From: Planctomycetia bacterium
Lineage (GTDB): Bacteria > Planctomycetota > Brocadiia > Brocadiales > Brocadiaceae
Reading direction: 5' to 3'
Assembly (NCBI GenBank): GCA_015075005.1
Contig: JABTVC010000001.1
Coordinates: 806,001 to 870,000 of the forward strand
DNA: 64,000 nucleotides
The notes beneath the pieces were generated by a model. It worked only from the letters and a program-made list of their open reading frames with translations, did no database searches and was not told where the DNA came from. The position numbers and the translations under genes are program-made. Position 1 is the first letter of the stretch. The number at the start of each line of letters is the position of its first letter. This document shows positions 18,260-31,402 of this stretch, in pieces.

Positions 18260-19612
18260 TTAAACACCTATCTCTTTTTTTATACCGTGTGCAATCTCAT
18301 GCGCCATTTTTTGGATTTCTTTTTTCTGCTCGCCTTCTATCATGACCCTGCATAAATTCTCTGTTCCTGAATATCTGACAAGTACCCTTCCCTTTTTTCC
18401 CAATTTTTCTTCTGTTTTTCTAACATACTTTATTGCTTCCAGGGTATTGATATCTCTCTTTTCTTTTACTTTAACGTTCATAAGCACCTGGGGCAGGGAT
18501 TCCATACATGCCTTTAACTTACTTAATATTTCGCCTTTCTCTTTCATAACTCTCAGCAATTGTAAGGCTGAGATTATTCCGTCACCGGTTGTTGTGTGAT
18601 TTGAAAATATGATATGCCCGGACTGTTCACCGCCTAAAACATATCCTTTCCTTCTCATCTCATCAATAACATATCTGTCGCCTACCTTTGTCTTAACAAC
18701 ACGGATATTCTTTTTGTCCATAGCAATGTCAAACCCTTTATTCGTCATGATCGTGGTAACAACGCAATTTTTCGTTAATGTGCCTTTCTCTTTCAGATAA
18801 ATAGCACATATGGCAATGATATGGTCTCCATCAACACTATTTCCCTTTTCATCACAAACAATAACCCGATCTGCATCGCCGTCTAATGCTATTCCAATAT
18901 CTGCCTTCTCTTTTTTCACCGCTTTCTTCATATTTTCCGGATGCAGTGCCCCGCAATTCAAGTTTATGTTAAGTCCGTCTGGTCTGTCGTTGAGCACAAT
19001 AACTTCGGCGCCTAACTCTCTCAATACCTGTGGTGCCGTATTATATGCGGCGCCGTTAGCACAATCTAAGACAATTTTTAATCCCTGGAGACTTAGGCCT
19101 TTTACCGAAGCCTTTGCAAATTCTATATACCTTCCTTTTGCATCGTCAACGGTATATGCATTTCCTATGAGACTTCCTGTAATATGTCCTGTTTTTACCT
19201 TTTCTGTTAAGATATATCTTTCAATTTCTTCTTCGACATTATCCGGCAACTTATAGCCATCATCACGAAAAATCTTTATTCCATTATCTGCGGCAGGATT
19301 ATGTGAAGCGCTAATTACCATACCTCCATCAACAGGTAACGATTTTGTTAAATGAGCAATGGCAGGCGTTGGCATATGACCAACAAGGAAAACATCAGCG
19401 CCTGCGGATAAAATCCCGGATGTTAAGGCATATTCGATCATACAGCCACTCAGCCGGGTATCTCTGCCTATGACGAGTTTAGGCCTTTTCTTCCCGTATA
19501 TTTTCCTGAAAACATGAGCAGTTGCTTTCCCAATGTTCAATACTACTTCAGGCGTCATGGGAAATATATTTGCTATACCCCGTATGCCATCTGTTCCAAA
19601 TAATTTTTCCAT
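18260..19612 (-). CDS. glmM: Phosphoglucosamine mutase
   Basis: 450 residues from ATG 19612 (MEKLFGTDGIRG, the classic start; the frame is open further upstream). All alpha-D-phosphohexomutase motifs are present: the catalytic phosphoserine loop VISASHNPAADNG at about 97-109, metal loop LDGDADR near 240, sugar loop GGEQSGHI near 325 and phosphate loop RYSGTEN near 412. It interconverts glucosamine-6- and -1-phosphate for UDP-GlcNAc. The glmU-like gene follows directly. Confidence 0.95.
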   Translation of the reverse strand: MEKLFGTDGIRGIANIFPMTPEVVLNIGKATAHVFRKIYGKKRPKLVIGRDTRLSGCMIEYALTSGILSAGADVFLVGHMPTPAIAHLTKSLPVDGGMVISASHNPAADNGIKIFRDDGYKLPDNVEEEIERYILTEKVKTGHITGSLIGNAYTVDDAKGRYIEFAKASVKGLSLQGLKIVLDCANGAAYNTAPQVLRELGAEVIVLNDRPDGLNINLNCGALHPENMKKAVKKEKADIGIALDGDADRVIVCDEKGNSVDGDHIIAICAIYLKEKGTLTKNCVVTTIMTNKGFDIAMDKKNIRVVKTKVGDRYVIDEMRRKGYVLGGEQSGHIIFSNHTTTGDGIISALQLLRVMKEKGEILSKLKACMESLPQVLMNVKVKEKRDINTLEAIKYVRKTEEKLGKKGRVLVRYSGTENLCRVMIEGEQKKEIQKMAHEIAHGIKKEIGV

Positions 19613-19673
19613 GGTAATTCTTAACCCGAACGAGTGAGAAAAGATAAAATCTGAAGCACGAAATTTATGAGTC

Positions 19674-19706
19674 AACCCTGTCAGGGTTTTAAACCCTGAC
19701 AGGGTT
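19674..19706. repeat. Palindrome AACCCTG-CAGGGTT
   Basis: aaccctgtcagggttt and then taaaccctgacagggtt form a near-perfect 16-bp inverted repeat with internal symmetry. It lies in the leader of glmM. It looks like a dispersed palindromic repeat rather than a terminator. Confidence 0.65.
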
Positions 19707-20140: not shown

Positions 20141-21953
20141 GTGCGCCTGAAAGTGCGCAATGCCAGAAAGGTTGTCCCCTTCAGGAAAACGCTTTCCGCC
20201 CTGTAACCGACCGTAACTGCGTCATTGTGATGATGGTGGGGAGCAGCACGGGTGAAAAAAGCTAGTCCGTAGGATAACGAACTCAATTCGGCCTGTTGTA
20301 ACGGTGAGCCTGCTAGGGAATGGCGGAAGCCCAGACCTTTGGAAAAAAAAAACCTCAAAGCCTATCAAGCTGAGGGTAGCGTAATAAAGCGATGACAGGG
20401 AGCAACGGGTGGTTGGAGACGGAATGGCAGGAAGGCAATGCATGAATCAGGGATACCTGATAGAAAGTGACTGTATCAGGAGTCAGAGCTCCATAGGAGC
20501 GAAGAAACATCGTAACGGATGTGGAGCAAAGGGAGGCAGGAAGGTGGATGAGTGAAGACTATAGAAAGGAAGAAAGACCATCGGAAGTGGGAGAAAACCC
20601 TAAGCAAGATGGAGAAGTCCCAATCAGGGAAGGTGGAGATGGACAGAACCTTCTGTATGGGCCGGAACGGATGTTGACGGCTTTGGAGAAAGGAGTGAAA
20701 GGAGGCCAAATGGTTTAGTCTGGTGGACAAGGTGTACTCAAGCGAGAACCTGAGAGCGTCATGGGAGAAGGTGGAGAGTAATGGAGGGCTGCGGAGTAGA
20801 CCGACAGAGCATCGAGGCGTATGAGAAGAAAACGGAATCTTGTGGAATTAGAGAAGATACTCAGAGGGAGCTGGGAGCATCAAGAGGGTGTGGATACCGA
20901 AGATAGGAAGCAAAGAGAAGAAAGAATCACCGATCGAATTGTGAATTATGGAAAGATGTTGAGGTAATGACAGGGCAAAACGGAACAGAGCATCGAAGAT
21001 AGGAAGCAAAGAGAGGCGAGGAATGTAAAGAATGCGCTGAGGGCGACAGTGGAAAAACTCTTGAAGAATGGATACCATGGGTAGTAGATGCAGACATCAA
21101 GAGCTACTTTGACGAGTGGAAAACCCATGAAGAATGAGCTGATGGAAGGCCGATGGTATCAGATTTCCAGCAGACGGAAGGATGGGTAAAAAGATGAGAC
21201 GAAGGATATCTGAAGCGAGGAATAATGGGCGGGACTCAAAGAATGGGAAGCAGAGAGGGGACACCACAGGGGCAGTAATAAGTCCATTATTAGCGAACCT
21301 ATATCTGATAAGATAGACCACGAAATGGCAAGGCTGGGGCGATGAAAAATGGTCAGGTATGCGGATAATGGCGTTATCCTATATGCAGAAATGAAGAAGA
21401 AGCAAAGAGGGCATTGGAAGAAATGAAGGGAATGCTTTCAAGCAAGAGAATGACTGCATCCAGATGAAGACGTAAACAATAGATGGTCTACCCAAGAGGA
21501 GGTTTGACTTTCAGGGGTACCACTTTAGAACGAGGGATGAGGATGGCCACACAAAAGAGTATGGATAAGCTCAAAGCAATCCATACACAGACGAGACGAA
21601 CATCAGGAGAGAGCATGAGAATGTATAACAGGAGAACTCAACAAAGTCTCAGAAGGCTGGTATGAATAACTTTAAACACAACCACAAAACGACATTTCAA
21701 AGAATAGACCGTTGGATACAAATGAGACTGAGGAACATCCTGAAAAGCGTCGGGAGGAAAGGAAGAGGCGAGTTGCAGACCATCAGAGATGGCCAAATGC
21801 GTACTTTAGCTAATCTTGGGTTGTTCACATTAACCACAGCCCATGCATTAGTCTGTCAATCCCGAAGGGGTAACCACTGACTGGAGAGCTGTATGCGGGA
21901 GACCCGCCCGTACGGTTCGGAGGGAGGGGAGGCGAAAGCCTTTCCTACCCCTA
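20141..21953 (+). mobile_element. Group II intron (probably class C), decayed
   Basis: The 5' end reads GTGCGCCTGAAAGTGCGC, the GUGYG-type start. Domain V is recognisable at 21886-21918: GAGCTGTATGCGGG, loop GAGA-like, then CCCGCCCGTACGGTTC, the standard hairpin with its bulge. Domain VI follows with ggaggggaggcgaaagcctttcctacccc and the intron should end near 21953. The maturase ORF inside is broken. The exact 3' end is approximate. Confidence 0.85.
20521..21880 (+). pseudogene. Group II intron reverse transcriptase/maturase, frameshifted
   Basis: Fragments in changing frames: VDKVYSSENLRASWEKVESN near 20.73-20.78 kb (the N-terminal start of RT domain 0), TTGAVISPLLANLYL near 21.26-21.31 kb (RT domain), and at 21662-21880 the maturase X-domain end FKHNHKTTFQRIDRWIQMRL then LGLFTLTTAHALVCQSRRG. 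The YADD catalytic segment is not readable. At least six indels or stops occur, so it cannot self-splice with its own protein. Confidence 0.75.
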
Positions 21954-23799
21954 TTATGGCATCTATCACAAAATTAATTTCACCCTTTTTAAGGTAAATG
22001 TTTCATTCAACTCCTCTGCGATTTCCTTTTCATAATAAATTTATCGTCTTTGTTCATTACCTGGAGACTTCAACCTCACCCTGATAGGTCCATATCTGGT
22101 GGTTCCACCATAATAGTCTACCTGTTCTAACTTATAATAGTATGACCTGCTGCTGGAATCGCGTTCATCTGTAAATCTATATTTTTTAACAGGCTGATCA
22201 GTATCTATGGCAGCGATGAGCACATTATTGACCTTTCTATAACCCCCACTCTTGCTCCTGGAACGGTAGAGATTAAAGGCTGCCGTGTCTGTTTCAGAAG
22301 GAGTTTTCCAATGCAAGGTTATCCTGCCATCACGACAGGCTTTTGCACGGAATGATCTCAGGGTAATACCGGTTGCATGTGAAATGCGGGTATTCCCAGT
22401 ATTGCTCATATCATGAGAATCAAGTGATGGATGGGCAGTTGTCCTGCTGCCTTCATTGAAGGAATAGAAGGCACGATGCTTTGACAGCCACGTCCCTGAC
22501 AGCGTATATGTCTGCGTCTCATCAAATTCACCATCGTAACCATAAACGCTGATATAATAGATGCCTGGATTCAACGCCTGGTATTGGATACTCTCTGACT
22601 TACCCGCAAAGTTTTCCGAAAAATCAACCAGCTGGTACGAGGAATTGTAGAGCTCCAGGTCGTAATCTCTATCTGGCGGCACGCTGAGGTCCAGGGAGAC
22701 CGTTCCTGGGTTCGATACGCTAATCTGAAAATAGTCATTGTCGGCGGGACTGCATATCTTCCCCGCATAGCTCTTTCCCGATAGCAGTGAACCAAAGGCG
22801 GCGCTAAAATCGTCATTTGGCTCATAATCATCGGTGCAGTCGGTTTCCTTATTAAAGAGGATGCTGTCGCTGGCCACTTTTGAATGCACATCAGAGCCAT
22901 TTTTAACCTTGAAATAGACGGTCTTACGTCCGCTGCCCTTACTCAGCATAAAGCGGGGTTCTGCTGAATAATCCTGCCACGTGGCTCCTGTGAAATCTGG
23001 AGACTCGCTCGCAAGGTAGGCCGTGAGGTTGCCCGTTGCCGTATTATGGAGCGTTACCCTCCGGTTGGTGGTTCTGGCCGCACCATTATTGATACGAAAT
23101 GAAGTGACCTTGGGAGGCAGTGCTGAAGGCCACGTCCCTGACAGCGTATATGCCTGTGTCTCATCAAATGCACCGGCATAACCAAAGACCTTGATGTAGT
23201 ATGTGCCGGGCTCGGATGCATCGTATTGAATATCCTCGGGTTCATCTCCCCCATTTTCTGAGATGCCAATGATCCCCCGTGATGCATTGTAGAGTACAAG
23301 GTCATAATCTTTTCCTGATGGCACATTGAGATTTATGGTAATCATCCCGGCGCTTGACGTAGTTATTTGAAAATAGTCCATGTCGGCAGGACTGCATATC
23401 TTTCCCGAATAGCTATTTCCCGATACCAGCGGACCATAGGCGGCGCTAAAATCGTCATTTGGCTCATAAGCGTCTGTACAGTCTCCCGGGGTCGGCGTTG
23501 GACTCGGAGTTAGGGTTGGGGTTGGACTCGGAGTCGGGGTGGGATTTGTTACCGAGAGGAGGATGCTGTCGCTGACCGTGTTTGATGAATTATTGGAACC
23601 ATCTTTGACCTTGAAGTAGACAGTCTTTTCACCATTACCTGCGCTCAGGGTAAAATCAGGTTCCGCTAAGTAGGTCTGCCACGTTGCGCCGGTGAAGGAT
23701 AATGACTCACTGGCAATGTAGTGTGTGGGACTACCCGTTGCCGTATTATTGAGCTTCACCGTGCGGCTGGCAGTGCTGGAGGCGCCGTTGTTGATGCTG

Positions 23800-26150
23800 A
23801 ACGAGGTAACCGAAGGCGTCGTAACCCCCGATGCATTGGTGGCGTATTTGAGGTCATCATTAGTCCAATCATAATAGCTGATGTGAGCATTGCTATCATT
23901 GTCTAGCGCTATAGAGGTATACTCCCCAACAAATCCACTGCTATCAACTGTGGTTGTTACCCACGTACCTGACGCATTGGTGGCATATTTGAGTCTCCCA
24001 TAATCTGCAATATCATCATAAAAATAAGGTTCTTCTCCAAATTAGTTTGCAAAAGCTTGTATAATTTTTAATGAAAAGTACCGTTCGTCATGAAATCCAT
24101 AAGCTTTTCTTTTGATGTCTTGATCTTATTAACCCCTTCGGGTTTACTCGTATGAATTTTATAGTCACAGTGATTCAAGATTCCATAGCTATGTTTCATA
24201 AGCATGTTTGCAAACTTATGCACAACAGAATGGTTTATCGTTTTCGCTAAAAGGCACCATTCGTCAATGGCTTTTCTCGCCCACGTCCGTGAGGTATAGG
24301 TCAAATATGTTTGAGTTTGTCTTTAAGAATCAGAACGGTATTTATTGTTTCATTGAGTGACAAGAGCTGTTTGAGATGTTCCCAGTGTTTTCCTGCGAAT
24401 GTTTCGTTTGTTTTAACAAAGATATTTTGAACCCTTGAAGACGTCCTTGTCCTCTTTCGACGCTTTTTGGTATTCAGCATTTCGTTTTGTCAATAACTTT
24501 GCAAAACCTGATACTACATGAAACAGGTCAAAGACTATCTTGACATGCGGCACATGCTTTTACTGCAAGAATATAAAGGGTCCATATCCATGGCAGTGGC
24601 CTCAAGAGACTGTCTTTCCTCCTCTGTCATACCGGCAAGAAGGTTCCAGGGTTTCTTTTGTTCTTTCCTTACACACCCAGACTACCCGACCACTCAGATA
24701 GTCCAGAACAACGGTCAAATAGCGCTGTCCCTTCTTAACAGGATTTCGTCTACTGCCAGTATGCGAAGATGCTGATAGTCAGTCTGCGCGTATTGTCGTT
24801 CAAAAAAAACTTATCGATTGCTTTTACTGTTTTCGGTTCATTCAAAATGTTTTGGCTCGGTAATGGTTAACATTTTACACAGTTCGTGAATATACGCTGC
24901 TAAACGATGCGTAACACGACTGTAAGGTTGAAAAACCTAAGTCTTCAACTACGATTCGATTGCATGACTCACAGGCTATCTTACGATACGAACAATTTAT
25001 CATACGCGAACGGGCCAAGATTCATATCCCACAAAGCTCGTTTGTCGTGACGATAAATGCGCTGTGCTTTGCTGCCACACACATGACATATTGGGTGAAT
25101 CGTTCATCGGGCACTGCAATAAGCTGGGATATCTCAGCATCAGAAAAAACAGTTTGCTTTGTAGTTCTTACCCGCTGAAAGGAAAATATGGTAATATGCT
25201 TAACGTGGACGTTGCTGGCCTCCTGTAAATAATGGTTATATATCGGTATATAGGAAACACCAAATGTCCACTCTTTTCAATGATTTAATGAAATTTCTCC
25301 TCAATTTCTATTGACTAATTTGGAGAAGAACCAAAAATAATAATAATAGCTTATATGGAGATGTCCCTGACCGTCAAGTGCCAGGGAGGAATAGCTTCAA
25401 CATCGTCAGGCTATCTACCGTGGTTTGTGCCAAGCACCTGGGACATTGGTGGCATGTTGGGGTCACCATTAGTTGAATCAAAATAGCTGATGTGAGCATT
25501 GCTATCATTGTCTAGCGCGCTATAGAGGTATACTCCCCAACAAATCCACTGCTATCAACTGTGGTTGTCACCCAAGCACCTGAGGCATTGGTGGCGTGCC
25601 AGGTCGCCATTGGTTGAATCATAATAGCTGATGTGGACTTTTCTGTTACCGTCTAATGCAAGAGGTATATCCCCAACATCTCATTTGCTATCCACCGTGG
25701 TTGTCACCCAGTACCTGATGCATTGGTGGCGTACTTGAGGTCACCATTAGTTGAATCATAATAGCTGATGGGACTTTTCTTTACCGTCTAATGCAAGAGA
25801 GAATTATGTCCCCCAACATCTCATTGCTATCCACCGTGGTTGTCACCCAGGTGCCCGATGTATTGGTGGCGTGCCAGGGTCTCTGTTAGTATAATCACGA
25901 TAGCTGATGTGAACTTTTCCGTTACCGTCTAATGCAAGCGAGGTATCTCTCCCAACATCTCCCGTGCTATCCACCGTGGTTGTTACCCAAGTACCTGAGG
26001 CATTGGTGGCATATTTTAGGATATCATTAGTTGAATCATAATAGCTGATATGAGCATTGCTATAATTGTCTAGCGCTATAGAGGTCTTGTTCCAACCACA
26101 GGTGGTGTCTGCTGTGGTTATTACCCATGAACCTGGAATGGGATTGGCTA
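23800..26150 (-). repeat. Tandem repeats of about 123 bp coding for HISYYD units, split by the IS
   Basis: Each unit reads, on the minus strand, about 41 residues: ALD..G..HISYYD, then TN.DLKYATNASGTWVTTT, then VDS.GDVG.YTS. One and a half units lie at 23830-24010 left of the IS and about seven at 25341-26150 right of it. The units on the right carry many one- and two-base differences that change frame (for example gatgtggac versus gatgggac). They look like a beta-propeller or BNR-like stalk, but I cannot name the domain. Confidence 0.7.
24028..25332 (-). mobile_element. ISL3-family insertion sequence, 1305 bp, with 8-bp target duplication
   Basis: Terminal inverted repeats GGTTCTTCTCCAAATTAGT (24028-24046) and ACTAATTTGGAGAAGAACC (25314-25332) are perfect over 19 bp. 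AAAAATAA is duplicated at 24020-24027 and 25333-25340. The transposase is on the minus strand and frameshifted: a zinc-finger part with QRIYRHDKRALWDMNLGP and RKIACESCNRIVVEDLG near 24.9-25.1 kb, and a C-terminal part at 24068-24304 with NHCDYKIHTSK. Eight-base duplications and these motifs fit ISL3. Confidence 0.85.
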
Positions 26151-28318
26151 CCGAGTTTAACGCGGCGAGGATATTAAGATTACCATACCCGAAGGTATTA
26201 TCCTGGGTGCCATTATTACTTGCAGTTTGAAATAGGGCATTTTGAACAGCAGGAGGTTATCTTTTAAGGAGGGATTTGCCTGTATCAGTAAGGCTACTGA
26301 ACCAGCAACGATGGGACAGGCCATGCTGGTTCGTGCATTATCGTGTATTCTACAGGGACCATTGCCATCGTTGTTTCCATCGTTGTCTATCACCGTTTTA
26401 CCATTAGAGGTACTCATATCTGATATGTTTTTGCTTTGTGGAAATTATTTCTTGTCCTGGAGCAGCGATGTCCGGCTTTTTTGTCCCATCAATCCTGGGT
26501 CCACGACTGCTAAATGATGAAATAGCGCCAAGTGGTGTATAAGGAAGACCGAAATCTTCAGAATTATATCGTTCGTCTTTGTAATTCCACCACGCTGTCC
26601 GAGTTGCATATGAACCTACTGCAACAGTTTTATCTCCAAGGGCTGGTGATAAAATAGTATTGCTACTGTCTGGATTTTTAAAGGTTACTGATCCTAATCG
26701 ATCACGGGAATATATGTGAAATAATTGATTACTATTTGATTTGTTTTTTACTTTTAAATAAAACTTTTCCTTCCCAAAATATCCTTGTGAAAATGAATAA
26801 ATAATCTGTTCCAATTCAGTACCTCTCACACTTTCATTTAAGTTCGAAAAAAGAATAGATTGTGCTGTAATATCTATCGGATTGGTAAAACCTCCAAAAT
26901 CTGAATATAATTTTAAATCAAGATCGTTTCTTACGCCTACGCCATCAAACCAATTTAGTCGGAAATCGAAGGAAAAACCCGGCATCCAACTTGATGCAGT
27001 ATTCACGGTAAACTCAATAAGATCAGTCTCGCTGTTAGCAGAAACTGTTCCTGAATAATGTCTGCCTGAAGTAGCATCATTTCCTGCAGATGCAAAGACC
27101 AGCGTCCCTTTATTAAACGCATTAGCGATTGCCTGACACATCGGGTCAGAACCATCGGGATAGATGGGCATCTCTCCCATGCTGATAGATATAATGTCAG
27201 CGCCATGTTTGTCTACGGCATCATTTATGGCTGCTGAAAAAGCGGCATAGTTAAAGCCATATTTTGGTAAATATTCATCATCAGGTCCACTCATCCTAAA
27301 AAAGATCAAGTCTGCACCAGGGGCCATACCTTTGTATTTTCCATTAGACTGGGTACCTCTTCCGAGGGCACTTCCAGTCACATGAGTCCCATGTCCAATA
27401 CCAAACTCATCTGCAATCGAATTACTCGAATTATTAGGATAGTTTGAATAACTCTTACTTGCTACAGGTTCTGGAATGTCTGGATGTGTAGTATCTAAGC
27501 CCGAGTCCAATATGGCGATTTTAACACCGGCGCCATTGAATCCGTAGTTGTTCCAAATATCGACTGCGTGAATACTCTGTGCCGCCTTGTCATTTAGATA
27601 TTCCAACTTTTGTTCTGCCGTTTCAAGCCTAACAACAAAGCCTTTTTTTGCAAGGGCATATAACTGATCAATGGGCATATTCGCAAGAATAAAACCTGTA
27701 GGATAGTTTTCGAGGGGCGGTGTCCAAGAATCCTCATAGACAGTTATCCTCATCTTCCTTAAGACTTTGATTTTTGAGCCACTCAATTTTCTTTTTACAT
27801 GAATGAAAACTAATTGTTTATCAAATTCCTTAGTTCTCATGCCCATGCTTTGCATAACGTTTAATCTTGCGGATGTTGGCTGTTCCTTATAGCTATTTTT
27901 TAATTGTATTTGCAACTTCAATTGTGGGCATATCTTTTTCTCTAATGTACTATCCTTTTTAACTTCATTTTCCATCTTCTGCAAAATCCCTGGCAAGATT
28001 AGGGGTTCGTTTCCTCCTAGTGAGGATGGTTTGTTTTCCGCTGAGAAGGCAAAGGCAAAACAGGTCAACAATAAACTTACCAGCACAACAAAACTGCGCA
28101 CAGCATATCTCTTTCCCATTTTTTTCTCCTTTCCTATACTAATTACGGTGATTTCTAATCTTAAAATCCAATACAACTAATTCTATACCGTGTATATCTT
28201 TGATTGTGACAACGGATTCAATTCATTAACGAGACGGCAATATTCGTCCAGTTAAAGATTAAAGCCCTTTTTTGCCTACTCTTTTTTAAATAGATAATTA
28301 CCTCCTTTAAAACAAAAA

Positions 28319-28364
28319 AGCCTTACTGCAAAGATTTTTTTCAAAAATCTTCGGCAGTAAGGCT
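28319..28364 (-). terminator. Intrinsic terminator between riboswitch and protease gene
   Basis: AGCCTTACTGC at 28319-28329 pairs with GCAGTAAGGCT at 28354-28364, with a second inner stem of about nine bases (aagattttt/aaaaatctt). On the minus strand the stem is followed by a TTTTTTGTTTT tract. On the plus strand it is followed by gtctttttt, so it could act in both directions. It is the expected expression platform of the riboswitch at 28381-28480. Confidence 0.75.
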
Positions 28365-28380
28365 GTCTTTTTTCAAACGT

Positions 28381-28480
28381 ACGTCCTTATACGTCTTGGG
28401 ATATTCCTGTACGTCCGTGTACTGGAAAGACCCTGTACTTTGCGTCCCACAGTCACCCGTGGTTTGCCTTTGTCGCGACG
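28381..28480 (-). promoter_or_regulatory. Cyclic di-GMP-I riboswitch (GEMM)
   Basis: On the minus strand the core reads GACAAAGGCAAACC, then stem CCACGG with GNRA tetraloop GTGA and CTGTGG, then GGGACGCAAAG, then a second arm with ACAGGGTCT. The GGCAAACC / GNRA hairpin / GGGACGCAAAG order is the signature of the GEMM-I (c-di-GMP-I) aptamer. The other arm is closed by TTCC/GGAA and an outer TAC/GTA pairing. A terminator lies 17 bases downstream and the protease start about 260 bases downstream. A relaxed variant that binds cGAMP cannot be excluded from the sequence. Confidence 0.85.
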
Positions 28481-28549
28481 ATATTTTTACTTGTCGATAT
28501 TTGCGAAAAAACTATCACAACCTATCTTGTATGTCAAGAAATAAATAAT

Positions 28550-29708: not shown

Positions 29709-31402
29709 TTACATCTGTTCAGGGGCATGCATGCCCAGGATATTAAGACCATTCTTTATGACTTGACGTGTAGCATCTACCAGGAATATCCGTGCCTTGG
29801 TTAGTTCTTCATTGTCCGACAGGACTCGATGTGCATTATAAAAACTATTCAGGCTGCCACATACGTCGATAAGATAATTGCATATAAGGGAAGGTTCGTA
29901 AAACTCGGCAGCCTTCATGATAACAGAGGGGAATTGTCCTAAATTCTTGATCAGGATAATCGTCTCGTCTTCTTTCAATAATTCAAACTGTATGTCCGCC
30001 GTAACAGACCTCCCGAATTTTCTCAGGATACTGCAAAGGCGGGCATGGGTATACTGGATGTAGGGGCCTGTTTCACCCTCGAAATTCAACACCTCATCCC
30101 AATCAAAGATCACGTCCTTGCTGCGTTTGGTGCACAGGTCGGCAAAGATGATGGCCCCGATACCTATGTCCCTCGCCACGGTCTCTTTGTTTTCCAGAGA
30201 AGGATTCTTTCCTTCTATAATCTTTCTGATACGTTCTACGGCCTCGATTAACAGGTCTTCCAGGAGAACGACCTTTCCCTTGCGGGTAGACATCTTGCCG
30301 TCCTTAAATTTCATGAGACCGAAGTCCACATGCACACAACGGTTTGCCCAGTCGTAACCTATCAACTCTAAGACCTTGAAGAATTGATTAAAATGCAGCT
30401 TTTGTTCAGAACCGACCACGTAAATCATCTTGTCAAAGTCGTAGGTCTTTTTTCTATATTCTGCGGCTGCAATATCGCGGGTGGCATAAAGGGTGGAATC
30501 GTCTTTTTTCCGTAAGAGGCATGGAGGCATATGGTAAGGCTCTAAGTCGACAATCAATGCCTGCTCGCTAACTTTAGCCAGCCCCTTTTCTTTGATTCTT
30601 GTTATGGTATCCTCAACCATGGTGTTGTAAAAACTCTCACCCACGAAGGCATCGAAGTGTATCTCAAGCATATCATAAATTTTTTGAAATTCCTTTAAAC
30701 TGATCTCCTTGAAGTGTTGCCATAGCTCTTTTGCCTCAGTGTCTCCGGACTCAAGCTTTTTGAACCATGCCCTTGCCTCGTCTTCTAAACCAGAATTTTT
30801 TTCTGCCTCCTGATGAAACCTTACGTAAAGATTATTTAAATCGGTAACGGTGTAAGATTTATGGGCATTTTCGCTTCCCCATTTTTTATAAGCAACGATC
30901 AATTGTCCGAATTGCGTACCCCAATCGCCAAGGTGATTGATCCCAACGCATGTATAACCAAGGGTTTTATAGATATTGCAAATGGCATTTCCTATGAGTG
31001 CGGAACGGGATGGTGAACGGCAAGGTGTTTGGCAATGTTTGGGAAGAGAAGTCGACAACAACAGTCTTTCTTTTGCCTAAGGTATTATTACCATACGCGT
31101 CGCGTTCTTCAGAGATTGTTTTCAGCGATAGCTCAGATAATATTACTTTATCCACAAAGAAGTTCACGTAAGGGCCGATGGCCTTTATCTCTGTGATTGG
31201 ACGAATGGCTTGTAAGGTATTCGATAGTTCTGTTGCGATGATGTTCGGGGATTTTTTAAGTATTTTTGTGAGGGTGTAACAGGGGAAAAGCATAATCACC
31301 CATTTTGGGTCAGGGGTATTTCTATAAGTCTTTCTATTTCATTTCCTGGAAGGTCTATTTTTCTTTTAATAGAGATACGATATGTCCTATAAAATGATCC
31401 AT
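29709..31402 (-). CDS. argS: Arginyl-tRNA synthetase, interrupted by frameshifts
   Basis: The 450-residue frame 29709-31061 is the main body (VCVGINHLGDWGTQFGQLI-type core at GINHLGDWGTQFGQLIVAYK, KMS-type loop MSTRKGKVVLLEDLL, C-terminal anticodon domain). A second frame, 30967-31299, carries the N-terminal domain (FPCYTLTKILKKSPN). Two further breaks upstream restore the start MDHFIGHIVSLLKEK at ATG 31402. Near 31.0-31.05 kb two missing bases turn the expected DFSSPNIAKHLAVHHLRSAL into broken frames. Repaired length is about 565, normal for the family. An essential gene with conserved codons in all pieces suggests sequence errors. Confidence 0.85.

Follow-up and report, generated by a model that had tools for sequence, protein, structure and literature searches.

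We consider it about 85 % probable that the minus strand of the window studied here carries a canonical c-di-GMP-I riboswitch acting as a transcriptional ON-switch, in which bound ligand prevents formation of an overlapping terminator. The window is a 64,000-nt stretch of contig JABTVC010000001.1 (positions 806,001 to 870,000) from a Planctomycetia bacterium of the Brocadiaceae. The unusual part is not the single copy at 28477-28349 but the size of the riboswitch set to which it belongs. The features of the locus are collected in Table 1.

Table 1. Features of the riboswitch locus and of the gene behind it (window coordinates)
Feature	Position	Strand	Basis
Likely sigma-70 promoter	28509..28537	-	Read by eye
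c-di-GMP-I riboswitch aptamer (P1, P2, P3)	28349..28477	-	RF03167 and RF01051 above cut-offs
G20 equivalent, ligand-specificity residue	28468	-	G in 52/52 scored cassettes
P2 hairpin CCACGG-GTGA-CTGTGG, GNRA tetraloop	28447..28462	-	Sequence and two-sided changes in relatives
A47 equivalent, stacks between ligand guanines	28441	-	A in 52/52 cassettes
61-nt insert at the P3 tip, two predicted hairpins	28368..28428	-	cmscan insert, RNAfold, BLASTN
C92 equivalent, pairs with ligand; terminator partner instead G28329	28354	-	C in 53/53 cassettes; fold
Expression platform: 21-bp intrinsic terminator (28364-28319) and U-tract	28314..28364	-	Hairpin energy, co-transcriptional fold series
S8 subtilase open frame, 571 aa, ends within catalytic domain	26404..28119	-	PF00082 E 2.7e-33, profile 1-220/288
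141-bp (47-aa) tandem repeats of the S8 gene, 4.6 copies	25410..26049	-	
ISL3-family insertion sequence splitting the S8 gene in its repeat region	24028..25332	-	Inverted repeats, DDE_Tnp_ISL3, target site duplication
3' part of the split S8 gene, two PPC domains	22041..24027	-	

The initial annotation, made from the letters alone, had proposed a c-di-GMP-I (GEMM-I) riboswitch with a transcription terminator and named a covariance model search among the checks. An Rfam covariance scan places two c-di-GMP-I models on 28477-28349 above their curated cut-offs: RF03167 (c-di-GMP-I-GGC) with 60.3 bits (gathering cut-off 59, E 9.7e-12) and RF01051 (c-di-GMP-I) with 58.7 bits (cut-off 35), the two placements being offset by one base. 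Judged by these scores, chance is excluded as the source of the match. The motifs that had been read on the minus strand are all there, with GGCAAACC at 28468-28461, the CCACGG-GTGA-CTGTGG hairpin at 28462-28447 and GGGACGCAAAG at 28448-28438, and the assignment to class and to a terminator-based platform was right.

To number the residues of the pocket we combined the Rfam consensus alignment with published numbering (PMC3764141, PMC4744006). For comparison, 74 cassettes were collected from this genome and from the closed same-genus genome G002; 53 of them matched the anchors and were scored. At G20, A47 and C92 the pocket has the canonical residues. C22, A23, A25, G32, A35, G42, C44, G45, A47, A48 and A49 all occur, spaced as in Vc2, the type aptamer of Vibrio cholerae (RF01051); with Vc2 the RNA shares G20, A47, C92 and, identically spaced, the conserved residues from C22 to A49. 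It differs from Vc2 in its terminator-based expression platform and in its P3 insert. On the 3' side G79, G83, C92, C93 and A95 are present. The G14-C93/A95 set and the C44-G83 interhelical pair, both among the conserved residues defined in PMC3764141, are found as well, the latter as C28444 and G28363, and the P2 tetraloop is GTGA at 28456-28453. By the numbering used, G90, conserved according to PMC3764141, is a U in this aptamer; either the numbering or the RNA may differ there.

Two other ligand classes have to be weighed. RF03167 is the top-scoring Rfam model and its family cut-off of 59 bits is reached, which could point to the c-di-GMP-I-GGC variant, a class whose ligand specificity may be altered. 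That cut-off is passed by 1.3 bits only, whereas the cut-off of RF01051 is passed by 23.7 bits, and the position-47 column, where the consensus of the RF03167 model has the G that we took as the mark of the GGC class, holds A at 28441 and in 52 of 52 cassettes. Because A47 of this RNA stands in the column in which the GGC model has G, we label the aptamer canonical c-di-GMP-I and regard membership in the variant class as highly improbable.

The second possibility is that the RNA senses 3',3'-cGAMP, as the GEMM-Ib riboswitches of Geobacter do. GEMM-I covariance models do not tell the two ligands apart, and the P3/P1 sequence and the ON architecture (PMC9262584) resemble those of Geobacter cGAMP switches. 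Position 20 sets ligand specificity, and an A there would favour cGAMP (PMC4744006, PMC3764141, PMC7288161); it is G at 28468 and in every scored cassette (52/52). The GGDEF domains of the genome point the same way. A Ser or Thr at the substrate-selecting Asp position of GGDEF domains marks the Hypr cGAMP synthases (PMC6456294), and it occurs in none of the 11 GGDEF domains that can be read at this position among 12 matches in the genome (L109 being the exception); ten have the Asp of GHxxGD and the eleventh, a degenerate copy interrupted by a stop, has Asn. We consider cGAMP a very unlikely ligand. On sequence grounds, then, the aptamer appears to be an ordinary canonical c-di-GMP-I aptamer, neither of the GGC variant nor of the cGAMP type. 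One of the GGDEF diguanylate cyclase genes lies within the window itself, at 1450-2331 on the plus strand.

The P3 helix is formed by AGUA-c-AGGGUC (28439-28429) with GAC-ag-CCUUACU (28367-28356), and its tip is extended by the 61-nt insert, which BLASTN matched to none of the other loci compared. The insert contains a GGG/CCC hairpin that competes in the predicted minimum-energy fold and could push up the ligand concentration needed. The P3 tips of other cassettes (L004, L008, L012, L021, L022, L035, L040 and L042) carry runs of GTTTAAACGG-like repeats of very different lengths, which look as if they were expanding inside the riboswitch.

Transcription would start from a likely sigma-70 promoter with a -35 box TTGACA at 28537-28532, a spacer of 17 nt and a weak -10 box TAGTTT at 28514-28509. 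A generic promoter scan listed none on the minus strand near the aptamer. Of 44 paralogous aptamers, 23 have an exact TTGACA in the 110 nt before them, compared to 21 of 880 shuffles.

Downstream, the terminator is a single 21-bp hairpin with one bulged C (AGCCUUACUGC-c-GAAGAUUUUU / AAAAAUCUUU-GCAGUAAGGCU), a predicted energy of -25.6 kcal/mol and a U-tract behind it. A two-stage terminator with a U-tract had been proposed; terminator and U-tract are real, and the stages are the two halves of one hairpin. Weak Rfam matches of mir-999 and mir-722 on this hairpin were set aside as chance. The 5' arm (28364-28343) begins in P3, takes C92 and the 3' strand of P1 and ends in an extension past P1. 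Its part at 28364-28354 is the P3/J3-1 segment of the aptamer, an overlap like that of pilM, and 16 nt in all (28364-28349), including C92 and the P1 3' strand, are common to both structures. In folds of the growing transcript, in which free energy cannot score the ligand, P2 and the pairs closing P3 persist until the 3' arm of the terminator has been made (about 28328-28320), and the structure then switches. Because the terminator 5' arm uses the 3' strand of P3 and P1 with C92, aptamer and terminator are mutually exclusive.

The initial annotation held that the sign of the effect cannot be read from the sequence, which seems too cautious, since ligand binding to a strand shared with the terminator, C92 included, should block termination. 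The closest precedent is pilM of Geobacter metallireducens, a cGAMP-responsive GEMM-I ON-switch with exclusive aptamer and terminator folds whose terminator sequesters the ligand-pairing C75 (PMC9262584). Our RNA resembles it in aptamer fold, in transcriptional ON logic and in a terminator that is made of the aptamer-stabilising 3' strand and sequesters the ligand-pairing C; it differs in having G20 in a genome with no cGAMP-synthase-type GGDEF found, which argues for c-di-GMP, in its 61-nt P3 insert and in its anammox host. Near-identical GEMM-I aptamers can also be OFF-switches in which the ligand favours termination, as Cd1 of C. difficile demonstrates (PMC9262584). The aptamer and terminator of Cd1 can coexist, whereas here the 16 shared nucleotides make the two exclusive, and we give an OFF-switch only a very small chance. 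By the logic of pilM and Cd1 we strongly infer that the sign is ON.

In the mechanism that we propose, RNA polymerase would begin just upstream and make the aptamer. With c-di-GMP bound, P1 and the 3' strand of P3, C92 included, would stay part of the aptamer; deprived of this strand, the 21-bp terminator could not form, and the polymerase would read through into the gene behind. In the absence of c-di-GMP, the terminator would form and transcription would end at about 28314.

The overlap is conserved. In 49 of the 53 scored cassettes the C92 strand is part of the terminator, compared to 112 of 1060 controls (11 %) in which the sequence downstream had been shuffled. The four exceptions are L006 and L033, which are without a 3' arm, L023, without a hairpin followed by a U-tract, and L040, in which the hairpin is present in downstream sequence outside the scored segment. 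In P2 both partners change at pair 3 (C-G/A-U), pair 4 (U-A/C-G) and pair 6 (A-U/G-C), and 50 of 52 cassettes have a GNRA loop. A shorter, second type of aptamer occurs without an overlapping terminator (L001, L010 and L019, at C1:1315972, 1366672 and 1366778). Two of the three form a tandem with a gap of about 30 nt; this type possibly acts by translational control.

The gene behind this copy is in poor condition. It had been described as a giant secreted S8 protease with adhesin-like repeats whose ATG follows the terminator. The ATG is indeed there, at 28119-28117, 200 nt past the terminator, and the first frame has a signal-peptide-like start and an S8 domain. The giant gene is not intact, since the frame stops at 26404 and an insertion sequence interrupts what follows; from coordinates, the gene minus the insertion would span about 1,590 codons. 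The repeats are real, as 47-aa units followed by two PPC domains, and "adhesin-like" is a loose term for units with no Pfam match. Comparison with homologues shows that a catalytic stretch of 46 residues with TSMACP is encoded in a different frame; it is enclosed by two 1-nt shifts that compensate each other, the first of which falls in an A-tract. Directly after the terminator, at 28310-28230 on the minus strand, lies AAAGGAGG, without a start codon at normal distance, which may be left over from the start of an earlier gene.

The insertion sequence is 1305 bp long with perfect inverted repeats of 19 bp, carries an ISL3 transposase and is flanked by an 8-bp target duplication, AAAAATAA, at 24020-24027 and 25333-25340. 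An 8-bp duplication is a trait of ISL3 elements. About 20 near-full-length copies are found elsewhere in the genome at 91-96 % identity. At 21884-21954 on the plus strand there is a match to group II intron domain V/VI with only short open frames upstream on that strand; the intron-encoded protein looks decayed or mis-sequenced.

These observations raise the possibility of a decaying orphan, a working riboswitch with a pseudogene behind it and no output, which would be compatible with the ON-switch explanation. The insertion with its target duplication, the two frame breaks in the catalytic domain and the absence of the riboswitch at S8 homologues all favour it. The indels may instead have arisen in assembly: the reading frame of arginyl-tRNA synthetase, another gene in the window, is interrupted at the catalytic region too, and the copies of the insertion sequence differ from one another mainly by homopolymer indels. 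Furthermore, the S8 domain and some repeats lie upstream of the insertion and could still be made. We put this possibility at a little under an even chance. In the arginyl-tRNA synthetase gene (29709-31338, minus strand) the coding sequence changes frame close to the catalytic start, a pattern that suggests indel errors in the assembly. We dropped the view that all frame breaks are true pseudogene decay, given that assembly indels are likely. The disruption by the insertion sequence is firmer than the frame shifts. Facing a disrupted gene, this riboswitch copy may now control little.

The pairing of riboswitch and protease does not look old either. No riboswitch scored above threshold at 12 loci of S8 homologues or paralogues, some of which have short or truncated flanks (L095 and L045 have little upstream sequence), and we dropped the pairing as a conserved unit (0/12). 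In genome G006, nth is directly followed by the phosphoglucosamine-mutase gene, whose counterpart lies at 18260-19675 in the window. In G002 the riboswitch stands behind nth and before an unrelated gene of 186 aa, and window positions 29215-28308 align throughout at 78 % identity. The riboswitch is behind nth in two species with different downstream genes. This synteny and the riboswitch-free S8 loci together argue that switch and protease are not an old pair. With a gene that is frame-broken and split, and homologues elsewhere without the riboswitch, the initial proposal of c-di-GMP control over a giant surface protease is doubtful.

The genome encodes two copies of hydrazine synthase alpha, from which we conclude that the host is an anammox bacterium; the two matches (C1:203955 and C1:1064798) have identical scores and frame lengths. 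The nearest named matches to the S8 protein come from Planctomycetota MAGs, one of them labelled Candidatus Brocadiaceae. The 3.9-Mb genome contains 44 c-di-GMP-I aptamers, the same count by RF01051 and by RF03167. The closed genus-mate G002 has 45 and genus-mates overall have 19-56; since G002 is closed, the high number is not an effect of assembly. In a phylum-wide sample, planctomycete genomes outside the order have at most 5, compared to at least 14 in many family members.

Genes were assigned to the sister cassettes as the first long open frame downstream, so the following list is provisional: autotransporter, Ig-like, DUF11 and beta-propeller proteins, caspase-like and papain-like peptidases, an amidase, a NapC/NirT cytochrome, a polysaccharide-synthesis protein, a dCache-HAMP sensor, a sigma-54 activator and an ATP-synthase subunit. 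About 44 cassettes of promoter, aptamer and, in most, overlapping terminator would jointly put surface, secreted and envelope genes under c-di-GMP.

About 30 GEMM-I copies are present in G. uraniireducens, and the set described here would rank among the largest one-class riboswitch regulons known to us. G. sulfurreducens, with 17 copies, is similar in that one cyclic-dinucleotide class serves many surface and cytochrome genes, sometimes in tandem (PMC6456294); the present set differs in its 44 copies (19-56 in the genus), in its use of c-di-GMP and in its planctomycete host. Literature searches on riboswitches in anammox bacteria or Brocadia found no paper on such a set in the library searched, which is not proof of absence. 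The set is unusually large and its regulon apparently undescribed.

Anammox bacteria grow in granules and biofilms, and routine genetics is lacking for them. One RNA class that is present about 40-50 times per genome and has a readable ON logic would provide a direct list of genes that c-di-GMP should turn on, and this list is testable by RNA-seq alone. We tentatively hypothesize, at odds somewhat short of even, that in the Brocadiaceae a self-contained cassette of promoter, aptamer and terminator has multiplied until each genome holds 19-56 copies, and that the cargo genes behind it change. c-di-GMP would then act as an ON signal across the whole genome, for the cell surface and possibly for growth in granules or biofilms.
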